Below are positions 19,659-24,559 of a stretch of 64,000 nt of DNA, piece by piece. Position numbers and translations under genes: made by a program. The stretch's first letter is position 1. Each line of letters starts with the position of its first letter. The DNA is from Fulvivirga lutea. Its GTDB lineage: Bacteria > Bacteroidota > Bacteroidia > Cytophagales > Cyclobacteriaceae. The notes beneath the pieces are model-generated. The model had not been told where the DNA came from. It saw only the letters and a program-made list of their open reading frames with translations, and did not search any database. Where the stretch lies: NCBI RefSeq assembly GCF_017068455.1, contig NZ_CP070608.1, positions 3,453,488-3,517,487 of the forward strand. Reading direction: 5' to 3'.

Positions 19659-21758
19659 TTATGTTAATGGTAAGGTTATTTTAAAATGGGTATGGTTTTT
19701 ATCATCAAGGAGAGCAATATTACCACCCAGTTTTAATATCGATTGTTTTACAATATATAAGCCTAAACCAAGTGTTCTGTGTTGCAGCGCAGATTTTTTG
19801 AAAAGCTCAAAAACATCACCTAATTCACTCTTAACGCTAGCACTGCCTTCATCAACAACGTCAATGATGATATTACTATCATCACTATCAATTAATATAT
19901 CAATGGCCTTCTCCAGGTTAGTATCACCCCTCATTTTTAGAATGCTTTGAATGAGATTAAAAAAGATTAAATCCATCAAAGCACTGTCAGACACCATTGG
20001 TTTATCCAGCTTAATATCCAGCTTCACATTAATGCTTTCATCGCCTTCTATCTTTTTATTCTGTTTAATGCACTCTGAAATAATTTTCTTGATGTGTATC
20101 TCATCTAGATTCAATTCCAAGTTAGATATTTCACTAATCGTTTTGAGTCGGGTTAGTATTGCATTTAGGTCTAAAGCCGAACTGTACAATTTCTGAAAAT
20201 ACTCAGAAGCCTTTTTCTCCTTTATGTCGAGAAGTGCCACATGGCACATTCCTAATAGCGTGGCTAAAGGCCCCTTAATGTCGTGAGATGATTTATAAAT
20301 AAAATTATCCAACTCAATATTTGCCAGCATCAGCTGATCATTCTTTTCCTTCAAGAGATCTGACTTTTCTTCCACAGATGACTTTAGCCGTTTGTTGTAT
20401 TCTTCCAATTTTTCATTCTGGGCTTTAATCAATGCCTGCGCCCTTTCCAACGCACTATTTTTTTCTTCAAGAGATTCTTTCTGGGCTTCAATTTCTTCAT
20501 TCTGCACTGAAATTTCTATGTTTCTAATCTTCAGAGTTGCATTTTTCTTTCTATTAATTCTAAGCTGATTATAGACTACAACAACCAGCAAAACAATAAG
20601 AATAATAACTGCTATGAGCACCATAACAAACCGTTTGTTAGCGGTTAATTGCTTGTCCTTTTTTGCCAATAGTTGTTGATTTTCTTCATCTTGAATTTCT
20701 AATTGAATAGAAGCAAGATTCCTGGCCAAGTTTTCATTAAACAATGTATCACGCAACTGTAATAGTTTAGTCTGATATTCAAATGCCTTTGATTTATCAT
20801 TGATCTCAGAATAGATTTCTACATACTGTTCCAGATTATCGAACATTCTGTCTTTAGCTCCAATTTCAATAGCGATACTCTGACTTTGATTCAATAGCTC
20901 AATAGCACTATCGTAATTGTGCTTATATAATGCCTGTTTACTCTGTAAATAAAGTATTTCTGAAATTCCTCTTTTGTCACCTATCGTGCTACGCAATTCA
21001 GCTGATTTACTTAAATAGCCATTTGCCTTCTCATAATCTGATTTCCGCTGATATATCTGGCCCAGCCCGGCATACGTAACGGATTTCCAGTACTTATTAT
21101 CAACATCAACAGCCAGCGACAATTGAAAATAGTGCTCAGCTCTGGGTAGATTATTTTCACGCAGGTAAGTATTTGCAGTGTTGTTTTGGGAATACAAGAT
21201 TAGATCTTTGTCATTTTGACTTTCCGCTACCTCAAGTGCTTCCAAAAAATACGCACGAGCCTTTTTGTAATCCTTCAACCGCTCGTAGACAAGGCCAATA
21301 TTATTTAAAGTAGTACCTAAGCCATATTCTTGTCCAATAGCCCGTTTCAAACTCAAAGACCTTAATAGATATTCTAACGCATTCTGATAGGATCCCAAGC
21401 TATAATTGGCTAACCCTAAGTTGTTTAAGGCATTATTCACCAATTCCTGATTCTCAATTTCCTTAGCTATTTTGAGTGCTTTGTCATTATAAACTATAAC
21501 AGAATCATAATCACCTAAATAATAGTAGGCACCTCCAATAAGTCTTAATGAAATACATATTAACTCTTGATCGTCTGTAAGTTTAGATAACCTATAAGCT
21601 TCGTAGGCATAGTTTATTGCACTATCTGGGTAATTAAGCCATAAGTTAATTGTACGCTGATTTAGTGAATCAATTTTTTGTTTTAACTGCTCGTTTTGCC
21701 CATTAGAATGAATGGAAAAAGTAAATACAATGAAGAGAAATAAGCCTAATTTTCTCAT
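19659..21758 (-). CDS. TPR sensor histidine kinase with degenerate ATPase domain
   Basis: A 699-residue membrane protein: signal peptide (1-20), periplasmic TPR array (about 35-330, e.g. 'LNNLGLANYSLGSYQNALEY'), one membrane helix (377-396), a long coiled coil (410-480), then a HisKA-like dimerisation segment with H492 in SSHDIKGP. The HATPase domain is eroded. In the N-box, N601-L-I-Q-S605 has Ser in place of the second Asn. In the G1 box, DEGSA (636-640) has Ala in place of the second Gly. LGLGL of G2 (663-667) remains. It lies 59 bases downstream of an intact paralogue. No response regulator is adjacent. It may be a pseudokinase or a phosphoacceptor partner. Confidence 0.88.
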   Translation of the reverse strand: MRKLGLFLFIVFTFSIHSNGQNEQLKQKIDSLNQRTINLWLNYPDSAINYAYEAYRLSKLTDDQELICISLRLIGGAYYYLGDYDSVIVYNDKALKIAKEIENQELVNNALNNLGLANYSLGSYQNALEYLLRSLSLKRAIGQEYGLGTTLNNIGLVYERLKDYKKARAYFLEALEVAESQNDKDLILYSQNNTANTYLRENNLPRAEHYFQLSLAVDVDNKYWKSVTYAGLGQIYQRKSDYEKANGYLSKSAELRSTIGDKRGISEILYLQSKQALYKHNYDSAIELLNQSQSIAIEIGAKDRMFDNLEQYVEIYSEINDKSKAFEYQTKLLQLRDTLFNENLARNLASIQLEIQDEENQQLLAKKDKQLTANKRFVMVLIAVIILIVLLVVVVYNQLRINRKKNATLKIRNIEISVQNEEIEAQKESLEEKNSALERAQALIKAQNEKLEEYNKRLKSSVEEKSDLLKEKNDQLMLANIELDNFIYKSSHDIKGPLATLLGMCHVALLDIKEKKASEYFQKLYSSALDLNAILTRLKTISEISNLELNLDEIHIKKIISECIKQNKKIEGDESINVKLDIKLDKPMVSDSALMDLIFFNLIQSILKMRGDTNLEKAIDILIDSDDSNIIIDVVDEGSASVKSELGDVFELFKKSALQHRTLGLGLYIVKQSILKLGGNIALLDDKNHTHFKITLPLT

Positions 21759-21817: not shown

Positions 21818-23899
21818 TTATATAAGTGAAATGGTCATTCTAAATTTTGTATGACTTTGTTCGGTTTTTGTAACTTCAATCTCACCTTCCAGTTTATCAA
21901 CAGCTAGCTTTACTAGGTAGAGTCCCATGCCAGCTGAGTCTTGTATTTCAGATGTTTTTGAAAAAATATCGAAAATCTGGTCCGATATAGAATCGTTAAT
22001 TCCCAGACCATTATCAACCACCTCAAAAACCAATTGATTATCATTTTTTATGAATGATATTTCAATAAAACTCGACACCTTTTCTGAAGGATCATGGAAT
22101 TTAAATGCATTGTTAATGATATTCGAAACAATAATTTTCAGTAACTCAGGATCACTGGTAACATGTAAATGCTCTTCGCCCTTTATTAATACATTTATTT
22201 CTTTCTTGATGTAGCCAATCTTGTTCTCATCTACAATATCAATAACTAACTGACTGAAATCAAAGTCTTCCTTTGTGGGTAGTGAGTTATTTATCTGATT
22301 GACAATCAATAATTTAGACAATATTCTATTGAGTTTTGAAGCCGTTTTACTCAGCTTCTGAAAATAGTCAACAGACATGGTATCCTTAATATCCATTAAG
22401 GCAATATTGCATATACCTTGTAGCGTGGCTAATGGTCCCCGAATGTCATGCGATGTTTTGTATATGAAGTTGTCTAGCTCGTGGTTAGACTTGATTAGGG
22501 CAGCATTTGATGCGCGCAATTCTTCCGTTCGTTCTTTTACACGTTCTTCAAGTTCAGAATTAAGGTCAACCAGTTTTCTATTCTGCTCCTCGATAGTGTC
22601 ATTAGCCTTTCTTAATCTTCTATTTACCCTTTTACGTACATTGTTATTCCTGTAAAGAAGTATTACAACCAAGGCAGTAAGAACAGAAATAACCACTGCC
22701 AAAAACAATAATGTTGTACGTCTGTTGATCTCTTTATTTTGAAGCTCTATAATTTCAAGATTTTCACGCTCTTCAAAATCCACCTGAATTTGCAAAAGGT
22801 TCTTAGCTATTACTTCATTGAGAATTTCATTGCTTACTGAATCATACAGGACTTGGTATTGATAGGCTTCTTTATATTTTTTTTGCGCAAAAGATATTTT
22901 AGCGTATTCTCTATAATTATTCTGAACCATTCTGGGTGTTCTAGCCTCAACAGCAATATTATGGCTTGAATCCAAGTAGTCGGTAGCCTTTGAGAATTCT
23001 TCCATATCAATATAAATGGTAGCTAAATTATTGTATATAGAAGCCCTCTTTATTCTAAAGTCATTTTTTCTTGCTATTTGAAGGGCCGTTAGATAGCTAG
23101 TCTTTGCTTTTTCGATGTCTTTGAAATACTGTAGACAAATACCCTTTCCCAAGTAGGCTTCCACTAAAATCAACTCCGAACATTGTTCGCTGCAATTCTC
23201 TATGGTTCTATTGAAATAGGAAAGTGCATCCTGGTATCTACCTAAGCCTATATAGGTTAAACCCATATTAGTGTAAGTACCATACACACTACTAAATTCC
23301 TCCTCTTCTTCTATTTGTTTAGATCTTTCAAAATAAATCAAAGCCTTATTATAGTCATTGAGCTGATAGTAGACCAGACCTATATTATTACAAGCGATCG
23401 CAATAGCTTCCTTATCTCCTTCCTCTTCACGTAGTTTCAAAGATTCAAAATGATATCGCAGAGCTAAATCAAATTTAGAAATTGAATAATAAGTTAGTGC
23501 CAAACCATTCAATGAAGCTTTTTCTCTATCCCTAATACCATTTATCCGCGCAGATTTAAGGGCAGCTTGATAATGAATAAGTGCCTCTTGAAAATTTCCG
23601 GCATTTTTATTTACATATGCGATGGCATATTCTGCCCTTACGTAATTTAAACTATCACCTAATTTTTTGGCGAGATCACTAGCTCTATTGGCTATTAATA
23701 GTGCGCTATCTAAATTGTCCAGCTTAGATACAAACAAGTCCATCAAAATAGACGGCTGCTCATTCACCGGTACGGTATTCAATTTATTTAATAATGAATC
23801 GGCTTTATTATTAGAAAAAAGGCATGTAGGCACAAATAATAACAGAACTAAGAATAATCTTTTAGAAATAATATCAAACACCTGTAAGCTTCTAGCCAT
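21818..23899 (-). CDS. TPR sensor histidine kinase
   Basis: A 693-residue kinase: N-terminal signal or anchor (about 14-29), periplasmic TPR repeats (about 85-345), membrane helix (396-416), coiled coil (425-475), HisKA-like segment with H484 in TSHDIRGP, and an intact HATPase with N593/N597 in the N-box, D629-N-G-L-G633, the F-box-like IFDIF, and GMGL (657-660). It is paralogous to the next gene downstream ('LDNFIYKTSHDIRGPLATL' against LDNFIYKSSHDIKGPLATL). It is an orphan kinase with no regulator gene nearby. Two micro-peptide genes lie upstream on the opposite strand, beginning about 217 bases away. The TPR domain suggests peptide or protein sensing, by inference. Confidence 0.92.
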   Translation of the reverse strand: MARSLQVFDIISKRLFLVLLLFVPTCLFSNNKADSLLNKLNTVPVNEQPSILMDLFVSKLDNLDSALLIANRASDLAKKLGDSLNYVRAEYAIAYVNKNAGNFQEALIHYQAALKSARINGIRDREKASLNGLALTYYSISKFDLALRYHFESLKLREEEGDKEAIAIACNNIGLVYYQLNDYNKALIYFERSKQIEEEEEFSSVYGTYTNMGLTYIGLGRYQDALSYFNRTIENCSEQCSELILVEAYLGKGICLQYFKDIEKAKTSYLTALQIARKNDFRIKRASIYNNLATIYIDMEEFSKATDYLDSSHNIAVEARTPRMVQNNYREYAKISFAQKKYKEAYQYQVLYDSVSNEILNEVIAKNLLQIQVDFEERENLEIIELQNKEINRRTTLLFLAVVISVLTALVVILLYRNNNVRKRVNRRLRKANDTIEEQNRKLVDLNSELEERVKERTEELRASNAALIKSNHELDNFIYKTSHDIRGPLATLQGICNIALMDIKDTMSVDYFQKLSKTASKLNRILSKLLIVNQINNSLPTKEDFDFSQLVIDIVDENKIGYIKKEINVLIKGEEHLHVTSDPELLKIIVSNIINNAFKFHDPSEKVSSFIEISFIKNDNQLVFEVVDNGLGINDSISDQIFDIFSKTSEIQDSAGMGLYLVKLAVDKLEGEIEVTKTEQSHTKFRMTISLI

Positions 23900-24115
23900 A
23901 ATTAACCAGCATTGTATCTTTTAATATTCCAAATTTGACTAACCAACTATTACAAGGATGTGATGATTCATATTATCATTTATTATTCCTAAGGCCCACT
24001 TGTTGAGGTGGAGGGAACGTGAATATAATTAATGTATTCATTAAATCCATATTGAGTGAAATTCTCAATTAACTAAAATGAACTATAAACCAACTAAAAT
24101 TAAAGACTAAAAATC

Positions 24116-24259
24116 ATGAAAAAATCATTACTGAAATTACTTGCCGTGTTAATGTTGACTGGTACCCTTTATTCTTGCTCAGAAGAGGAAATTAACCCTT
24201 CCGATGACCTTAACAGCAAAAAAACAGAAGGTGTAACAAAAGATGACGGCACATTTTAA
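24116..24259 (+). CDS. Micro-lipoprotein (47 aa) with C-terminal GVTKDDGTF
   Basis: A short ORF: ATG at 24116, then a hydrophobic signal (KSLLKLLAVLMLTGTLYSC) whose Cys21 fits a lipobox, followed by only 26 residues rich in Glu, Asp, Ser and Lys and ending GVTKDDGTF. It is 18 bases upstream of a second tiny ORF with a matching C-terminal nonapeptide (GIVKEDASF). Reality as a gene is supported by the well-formed export signal, the tandem partner and the shared tail. Function is unknown; a secreted peptide signal or small surface lipopeptide is possible. Confidence 0.6.
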   Translation: MKKSLLKLLAVLMLTGTLYSCSEEEINPSDDLNSKKTEGVTKDDGTF

Positions 24260-24277
24260 AATATAAATTTTACCACT

Positions 24278-24436
24278 ATGAAATCTAAAATATTAATTAC
24301 CGCAGTGATTGTTGCAATCTTAGGATCGTTTGCTTTTATCACTATCGAAAAAACTCAATTTGAGAAAAAAGAACAAAGTGTTCAATCTACCAATGAACCT
24401 TTGAGTGGAATTGTGAAAGAAGACGCTTCTTTCTAA
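24278..24436 (+). CDS. Micro-exported peptide (52 aa) with C-terminal GIVKEDASF
   Basis: A 52-residue ORF with an N-terminal hydrophobic signal or anchor (about residues 4-23), a charged linker (EKTQFEKKEQSVQ) and the C-terminus GIVKEDASF. This tail aligns without gaps with the preceding micro-ORF (G, K, D and F identical; V/I, D/E, G/A and T/S conservative). No lipobox Cys is present, unlike the first. The pair looks like a tandem duplication with diverged leader and conserved tail. A hairpin at 24513-24538 follows and could end the transcript. Function is unknown. Confidence 0.6.
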   Translation: MKSKILITAVIVAILGSFAFITIEKTQFEKKEQSVQSTNEPLSGIVKEDASF

Positions 24437-24512
24437 GCAAATATTACTTTCTCCACTTTTTTCTGTTGTTCCCCGCACATGCAGAACAGGTTCTTTTTGC
24501 TCCAATTATAAA

Positions 24513-24538
24513 AAAAGTGCAACAAAAATTGCACTTTT
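24513..24538. terminator. Weak bidirectional terminator-like hairpin
   Basis: Perfect 10-bp stem AAAAGTGCAA/TTGCACTTTT with loop CAAAAA. The U-rich tail is only the stem's own TTTT, so efficiency is doubtful. Confidence 0.5.
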
Positions 24539-24559
24539 CGGATAAAACCTTACATTCAA

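Follow-up and report, generated by a model that had tools for sequence, protein, structure and literature searches.

As a conserved unit of Fulvivirga and related Cyclobacteriaceae, one to four copies of a micropeptide gene (pep1), mostly accompanied by one or two copies of another (pep2), lie divergent from the gene of an orthologous histidine kinase with a TPR sensor domain (TPR-HK1). The peptides and this TPR domain are very probably functional partners, and between related cassettes they diverge together as a block beside a conserved kinase half. We hypothesize, with more confidence than doubt, that the C-terminal tails of pep1 and pep2 are the cognate ligands of the predicted periplasmic TPR domain of the adjacent kinase, and that the cassette is a kin-recognising pherotype locus. 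The cassette was analysed in Fulvivirga lutea, within a window (the whole stretch of 64,000 nucleotides under study), and in its relatives.

The cassette and its conservation

The features of the window are listed below.
19659..21758, minus strand: TPR-HK2, a second TPR kinase flanked by metG and TPR-HK1; not accompanied by its own peptides, present in only some relatives, outside the cassette
21818..23899, minus strand: TPR-HK1, putative cognate sensor kinase, 693 aa; TPR ~32-364 (predicted periplasmic), TM ~397-415, HisKA/HATPase ~471-693
23900..24115, no strand: intergenic/promoter region from which kinase and pep1 diverge; its counterpart falls within the divergent block in relatives
24116..24259, plus strand: pep1, 47-aa lipobox micropeptide, predicted mature from Cys21; tail EGVTKDDGTF
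24278..24436, plus strand: pep2, 52-aa micropeptide with a hydrophobic segment at its N-terminus; tail SGIVKEDASF
24512..24539, no strand: strong hairpin between pep2 and typA; fold z -4.9 on the plus strand, terminator-like on the minus strand only, role uncertain

Pep1 (MKKSLLKLLAVLMLTGTLYSC-SEEEINPSDDLNSKKTEGVTKDDGTF) carries the lipobox LYSC and looks like a lipoprotein, while pep2 (MKSKILITAVIVAILGSFAFITIEKTQFEKKEQSVQSTNEPLSGIVKEDASF) has a hydrophobic N-terminus (residues 5-19) and no lipobox. The two ORFs are 18 bases apart, 216 bases separate pep1 from the divergent TPR-HK1, and the ends GVTKDDGTF and GIVKEDASF share four identical residues (G, K, D and F). In the ORFs, their spacing and their tails the sequences agree with the original prediction, which had described, from the letters of the window alone, two neighbouring ORFs of 47 and 52 codons with export signals and matching tails. 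Neither peptide significantly matches a known peptide family in Pfam, where both lack a family at E<=0.01, or in NCBIfam, where the matches are weak (best E 0.0035) and far under the cut-offs. A sigma-70-type scan found 9 sites (3.2 in shuffles), from which no conclusion is drawn, since the promoter consensus of Bacteroidota differs from the sigma-70-type consensus.

Both kinases of the window have TPR repeats and HATPase_c above the Pfam cut-offs, with HisKA slightly below. In TPR-HK1 the TPR domain lies between hydrophobic segments at residues 10-28 and 397-415; an AlphaFold2 model (55-row alignment) predicts a helical TPR solenoid over ~32-364, with 10-residue mean pLDDT of 85-98 up to residue 360, followed by a long helix (368-426) that contains the second hydrophobic segment, and then the kinase. 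Among solved structures, Foldseek places the TPR domain closest to the TPR domains of LGN/Pins (E ~1e-13), many of them in partner complexes, and the other half of TPR-HK1 closest to histidine kinases. The prediction had linked the peptides to two neighbouring TPR kinases: both are indeed such kinases, but the link holds for TPR-HK1 only, and TPR-HK2 was rejected as a receptor because it is not conserved together with the peptides. TPR-HK2 also occurs in four other loci (L146, L147, L150 and L154).

The micropeptide ORFs are not chance frames, because homologues occupy the same place in many genomes. Among 58 relatives (the genome itself included), a pep2 search at E<=0.1 matched 15: 13 in the genus, G031, and, doubtfully, G020; a TPR-HK1-like match at E<=1e-100 was found in all 15 genus members and six others (partial in G003). 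Of 295 genomes of the family, 62 matched a pep2 profile at E<=0.01, and in 51 of these the match falls in a short frame at E<=2.1e-5; among the 11 weaker genomes, G307 and G315 show the expected gene order, which gives 53 genomes in 10 genera. Homologues with codon conservation, on which the prediction depended, are thus present in relatives: pooled over close orthologues (overlapping pairs, none with the window's own copies), pN/pS is 0.30 for pep1 and 0.22 for pep2, and 0.39 and 0.09 for their respective tails.

The pairing with TPR-HK1 holds from both sides, as the prediction of homologues near TPR kinases would have it. With the peptides as bait, TPR-HK1 lies divergent and less than 500 bases away in 37 of 40 loci, the other three starting at a contig end, and in 33 of the 37 the stretch fetched also includes metG. 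With the kinase alone as bait, the best 80 of at least 408 relatives gave 79 loci, many from MAGs, the named members belonging to Fulvivirga, Ohtaekwangia, Dawidia, Chryseolinea and their kin; among these best 80, the loci with at least 600 bases upstream carry pep1 in 66 of 68 cases and both peptides in 61, and the two without pep1 (L186, L223) best match TPR-HK2. Because the two bait sets overlap in many genomes and the HMMs were built from the peptide-bait set, an HMM-free rule was also applied (a divergent ORF of 35-65 aa with a lipobox-like Cys and an acidic start, at most 800 bases from the kinase). By this rule a pep1-like ORF is present in 62 of 67 kinase-bait loci (again from the best 80 of at least 408 relatives), in none of the 14 loci with sufficient flank among 30 fetched for kinases matching the FimS profile, and in none of five other TPR kinases of the window's genome (seven tried); the peptide profiles reached at best E 0.15 on 38 control loci. 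Some L numbers denote one place fetched twice (e.g. L142/L155, L139/L222, L210/L284), many loci are MAGs, and pair counts are not independent.

Among more distant kinases, pep1 occurs without pep2 in L210-L214, L283 and L286 (L284 coincides with L210), and L285 lacks both. Beyond the family, pep2 was pursued in 291 genomes of the order and set aside, the matches being weak and mostly to long ORFs; for three of them (L269-L271), no TPR kinase was recognised in the ORF lists. Extending the pairing to FimS-like kinases likewise proved negative at the 14 testable FimS-profile loci; kinases matching this profile occur in 48 of 149 genomes of the class at E<=1e-40, some by the kinase half only.

The recurrent neighbours of the cassette are metG, typA, bioB, sppA and the kinase, and the gene downstream varies by genus (typA, bioB or sppA). 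No immunity gene or transporter is a conserved neighbour. The cassette holds no processing protease or exporter, and no response regulator conservedly adjoins it, two points that count against a signalling reading. A receiver-domain protein lies near TPR-HK1 in a few species (L024, L025 and L031, by Pfam for L024 only) and, in L024 and L025, a ~130-aa protein of unknown family lies between the two; both are candidate partners. In one place fetched twice (L139/L222, genome G217), TPR-HK1 is represented by two overlapping ORFs of 345 and 352 aa, either a broken gene or a sequencing error. Additional TPR-HK1-related TPR proteins of ~490-540 aa, some in shorter pieces, are found near the cassette (L106 = L203, L137) or elsewhere in the genome (L290).

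Variation of the tails and the mosaic block

Variation was studied in 82 non-redundant cassettes, chosen from 113 in which the two peptides accompany a kinase of more than 600 aa, close species being retained; one of the 82 (L183), with pep2 truncated by the contig end, is kept in the array, codon, co-divergence and composition statistics. From its Cys, pep1 measures 19-37 aa (median 25); of the 82 cassettes, 78 have S, T, N, Q or A at position +2, 66 have at least two acids at +3..+5, and nine have at least two extra Cys after the lipobox Cys. The pep1 tails of L156, L157, L200, L190, L192 and L216 contain a Cys pair (e.g. DPCQFGGPGCK), perhaps closed by a disulfide.

Tandem pep1 copies occur in 25 of the 82 cassettes, and within these arrays the tails are far more uniform than the signal peptides: all copies agree in the last 12 residues in 19 arrays and in the signal peptide in two, with tail identity higher than signal-peptide identity in 22, lower in one and equal in two. 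Summed over all copy pairs, the tails differ by 277.7 synonymous and 122.3 nonsynonymous changes (pN/pS 0.14) and the signal peptides by 426.3 and 493.7 (pN/pS 0.40, leaving out pairs of unequal signal length). Six arrays (L109, L125, L130, L179, L207 and L209) contribute 120.3 of the 122.3 nonsynonymous tail differences, and the array tails of the related L184 and L185 show 39 synonymous and 0 nonsynonymous changes each. As the tails are kept despite synonymous changes, their identity is not merely a product of recent copying, and the earlier suggestion that selection acts on the tail is borne out. The unequal tails of six of the 25 arrays count against a signalling reading. Between cassettes, by comparison, pep1 is least conserved in its tail in every distance class, with a conservation of 0.59 at kinase distance <0.15 and 0.30 at 0.35-0.5. 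Unlike tails are also carried by two cassettes on one contig in L155 (= L142), L157, L192 and L216. L156 has a second cassette with a different tail beside the first, and only its pep1 is on the contig.

The ends of pep1 and pep2 change jointly. Within one cassette they are similar (ADGPY/EDQAY, against ADDAF/ADQAF in its sister; VSDRL/VSETRL, against VSDKF/VSESQF), and the last residue is shared by the two peptides in 32 of 82 cassettes. When partners were exchanged between 40 nearest-neighbour cassette pairs (L183 left out), last-residue similarity fell in 10, rose in one and was unchanged in 29 (sign p 0.006; 11 for and 0 against with L183 included). The same exchange over four residues gave 16 for and 7 against (p 0.047), and over eight residues, in the main pairing, a nonsignificant 17 for and 14 against (p 0.36; 18/14 including L183). 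Pairing by the kinase domain only gave 16/1, 20/7 and 26/9, and by the TPR only 10/1, 16/7 and 20/12, for one, four and eight residues. Changes of the last residue are associated as well, with both peptides changed in 14 pairs, pep1 only in 7, pep2 only in 4 and neither in 15 (Fisher p 0.004).

Across the cassette, the peptides follow the TPR half of the kinase and the kinase half follows metG. For 32 pairs at kinase-domain distance <0.15, the pep1 tail distance correlates with the TPR distance at rho 0.83 and with the kinase-domain distance at 0.25 (p 0.16, a rough value given overlapping pairs). In DNA identity, over the 68 close overlapping pairs with metG (71 in total), rho is 0.90 between peptides and TPR, 0.88 between kinase half and metG, and 0.41 between peptides and kinase half. 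Compared with the kinase half, the TPR is lower by more than 0.12 in 44 of the 71 pairs and higher by more than 0.04 in two; L183 is in none of the mosaic pairs.

The clearest case is L196 (Ohtaekwangia koreensis) against L169, where metG, sppA and fabD are 0.96-0.97 identical and the kinase half 0.96, versus 0.65 for the TPR (0.38-0.45 at third positions) and 0.61 for the peptides. Sliding identity in this pair is 0.92-1.00 outside and 0.45-0.74 across pep2-pep1-TPR; the right edge falls at kinase base 1050-1200, beside the TM, and on the left a barely alignable stretch extends beyond pep2 to about -1800. In L175/L161 it is 0.41-0.66 inside and 0.75-0.97 outside, and the edges fall near -750 and +1050. 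L185/L184 shows the opposite step at the kinase (TPR 0.93, peptides 0.97, kinase half 0.84, metG 0.83), but its left flank is also similar (0.87-0.97 from -3600 to -1950), so that the right edge alone is informative; L161/L137 is the other pair with the TPR above the kinase half. Considering the left stretch of L196/L169 and the left flank of L185/L184, the left edge of the block does not coincide with pep2 in every pair. In L160/L159, a control whose tails are equal, identity is maintained across peptides and TPR and drops only downstream of pep2. Since third positions are near saturation inside the block and near identity outside it, these patterns point to recombination as the source of the mosaic, very fast divergence being formally possible. 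Co-divergence of tails and TPR is itself suggestive only: partial-Mantel values over all pairs are 0.35 and 0.49 for the tails versus 0.22 and 0.24 for the signal peptides, and in sister pairs tails (0.76/0.64) show no clear excess over signal peptides (0.70/0.72) in following TPR divergence, so that this correlation alone indicates joint inheritance and nothing further.

Proposed mechanism and alternatives

From these patterns we infer how the tails are processed and bound, in which direction the signal runs and what it drives. Pep1 and pep2 would be exported propeptides whose C-terminal tails serve as ligands of the periplasmic TPR domain. Pep1 would be made as a lipoprotein, and it may stand on the cell surface, because its polar and acidic start (C-S/T-E-E-E) resembles the lipoprotein export signals SDDDD and SDDFE (available text of PMC5080379). 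Pep2 would be an N-terminally anchored or cleaved periplasmic peptide, acting as the membrane-tethered or secreted partner. Each peptide would expose or release a tail whose end is specific to the lineage; in the TPR groove this tail would alter kinase activity, and the response regulator would be encoded elsewhere in the genome. The peptide-plus-TPR block is apparently exchanged as one unit; kin recognition is suggested because tails and TPR domain change together, and because the tails are lineage-specific and unlike in neighbouring cassettes. On this footing the original proposal of a small signalling system, composed of a pro-peptide and a TPR kinase, is supported by the pairing, the tail homogeneity, the correlated ends and the mosaic, with binding and signalling as conjectural steps.

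That the signal passes between cells is a claim we hold only marginally above even. In one alternative, which we regard as unlikely, the cassette is a self-contained envelope sensor of a single cell: pep1 would report lipoprotein maturation or surface export with pep2 as a tethered co-ligand, and on failed export tails would build up in the periplasm, where they would act on the TPR kinase; ligand and receptor would be real in this case too. The build of pep1, a minimal lipoprotein with a start like an export signal, fits such a role, as does a cassette free of exporter and protease; lineage-specific tails, unlike tails in neighbouring cassettes and the joint divergence of peptides and sensor half on a conserved background are not what it predicts. 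It is a good deal less probable that the peptides are outputs controlled by the kinase, namely lipopeptides at the surface that serve structure or antagonism. Kinase and peptides do share the divergent region, and pep1 has tandem copies in 25 of 82 cassettes; yet the co-divergent block takes in the sensor half of the kinase and not its kinase half, and neither immunity gene nor transporter is among the conserved neighbours.

We give even less credence to an island made by fast evolution or hitch-hiking under an outside pressure (for example with the TPR as a phage or toxin target), with the peptides as passengers. The signal peptides of sister pairs, which track TPR divergence as well as the tails do, would suit it; the holding of tails through synonymous changes in most arrays and the joint change of the last residues of pep1 and pep2 argue against it. 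Short, tandem ORFs with hydrophobic N-termini also recall spurious or leader ORFs (an attenuator, a type I toxin or an sRNA), a reading largely refuted, and of almost vanishing probability, given the coding constraint and array behaviour, the variable downstream gene, and an Rfam search with two weak matches and none above the gathering score.

Peptide pheromones are known mainly in Gram-positives. A bolder form of the cognate-ligand hypothesis, which we advance as conceivable but somewhat doubtful, is a separate pheromone system of Gram-negative Bacteroidota, in which surface ribosomal lipopeptides are read by the periplasmic TPR kinases of kin, reached by contact, vesicles or tail shedding, and pherotypes spread by peptide-plus-TPR recombination. 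If this is true, the combination of micropeptide and extracytoplasmic TPR would form a signalling module of general use, given that related lipobox micropeptides in the genus are tied to a second TPR class with an XRE regulator. The literature searched, outside which most subscription papers lie, yielded no peptide-TPR kinase pair in Bacteroidota. Natural non-cognate pairs whose kinase halves are nearly identical, together with one receptor and two candidate ligands, make the hypothesis directly testable.

Known systems and a second micropeptide-TPR module

ComQXPA of Bacillus and agr of Staphylococcus resemble the cassette in that a small peptide gene lies beside a membrane histidine kinase in a polymorphic locus. 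The variable block of comQXP ends within the sensor half of comP, agr is a comparable polymorphic pherotype locus, and the sensors ComP and AgrC are polytopic membrane proteins. Here, too, peptide and sensor half co-vary and the kinase half is conserved; different are the Gram-negative host, the TPR solenoid sensor, the predicted lipoprotein pep1, the two peptide types and the lack of a peptide-modifying membrane enzyme (ComQ or AgrB) in the cassette, whose neighbours are those named above. In comQXP the polymorphism leaves comQ 65-70% identical in nucleotides between clusters (consulted portion of PMC4408185). The mosaic of the cassette resembles that of the comQXP and agr pherotype loci, and the system would work as they do, with other parts.

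In RRNPP(A) systems (Rap, Rgg, NprR, PlcR, PrgX), as described in the available parts of PMC10075063 and PMC9765709, a short exported propeptide adjoins a TPR receptor and the peptide lies in its concave groove, the receptors being described there as cytoplasmic and from Firmicutes. The cassette likewise has an adjoining short propeptide with an export signal, in the range of ~10-100 aa; unlike in RRNPPA systems, the TPR, joined to a histidine kinase and flanked by the two hydrophobic segments, is predicted to lie outside the inner membrane. FimS of Porphyromonas gingivalis has the architecture of TPR-HK1 (periplasmic TPR domain, TM, histidine kinase), and its signal is unknown according to the part of PMC11053733 available; TPR-HK1 scores 94.1 bits against the FimS model NF053520 of NCBIfam (cut-off 600), and the 14 testable FimS-profile loci differ in lacking the pep1-like ORF. 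In Bacteroidales RiPP clusters, as far as the accessible text of PMC10352776 goes, TPR-domain genes occur in two and a kinase/regulator pair in a third; these have double-glycine leaders, transporters and modifying enzymes, and no pair of lipobox micropeptide and TPR kinase. The LGN/Pins domains, the best structural match to the sensor, are eukaryotic and without a kinase, so that the likeness is one of fold only.

A further lipobox micropeptide (type 3, ~50 aa, e.g. ending LNTEGVNEGHDEGPGEF) is found in Fulvivirga with large genomes and in one further genus (five genomes). In all 15 loci fetched, a subset of the short-ORF matches (L028, L032, L033, L035, L039, L040 and L274-L282), it lies upstream of a TPR protein, and an XRE-type HTH gene adjoins the module in 13, the other two being short contigs; TPR and HTH were identified by Pfam for L033 only and by BLAST to L033/L280 for the rest. 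Each of the four TPR proteins examined has a TM at the C-terminus; a clear hydrophobic segment at the N-terminus is present in three. L035 carries a split and L039 a shortened TPR gene, and L275 and L282 are almost identical copies from a single genome.
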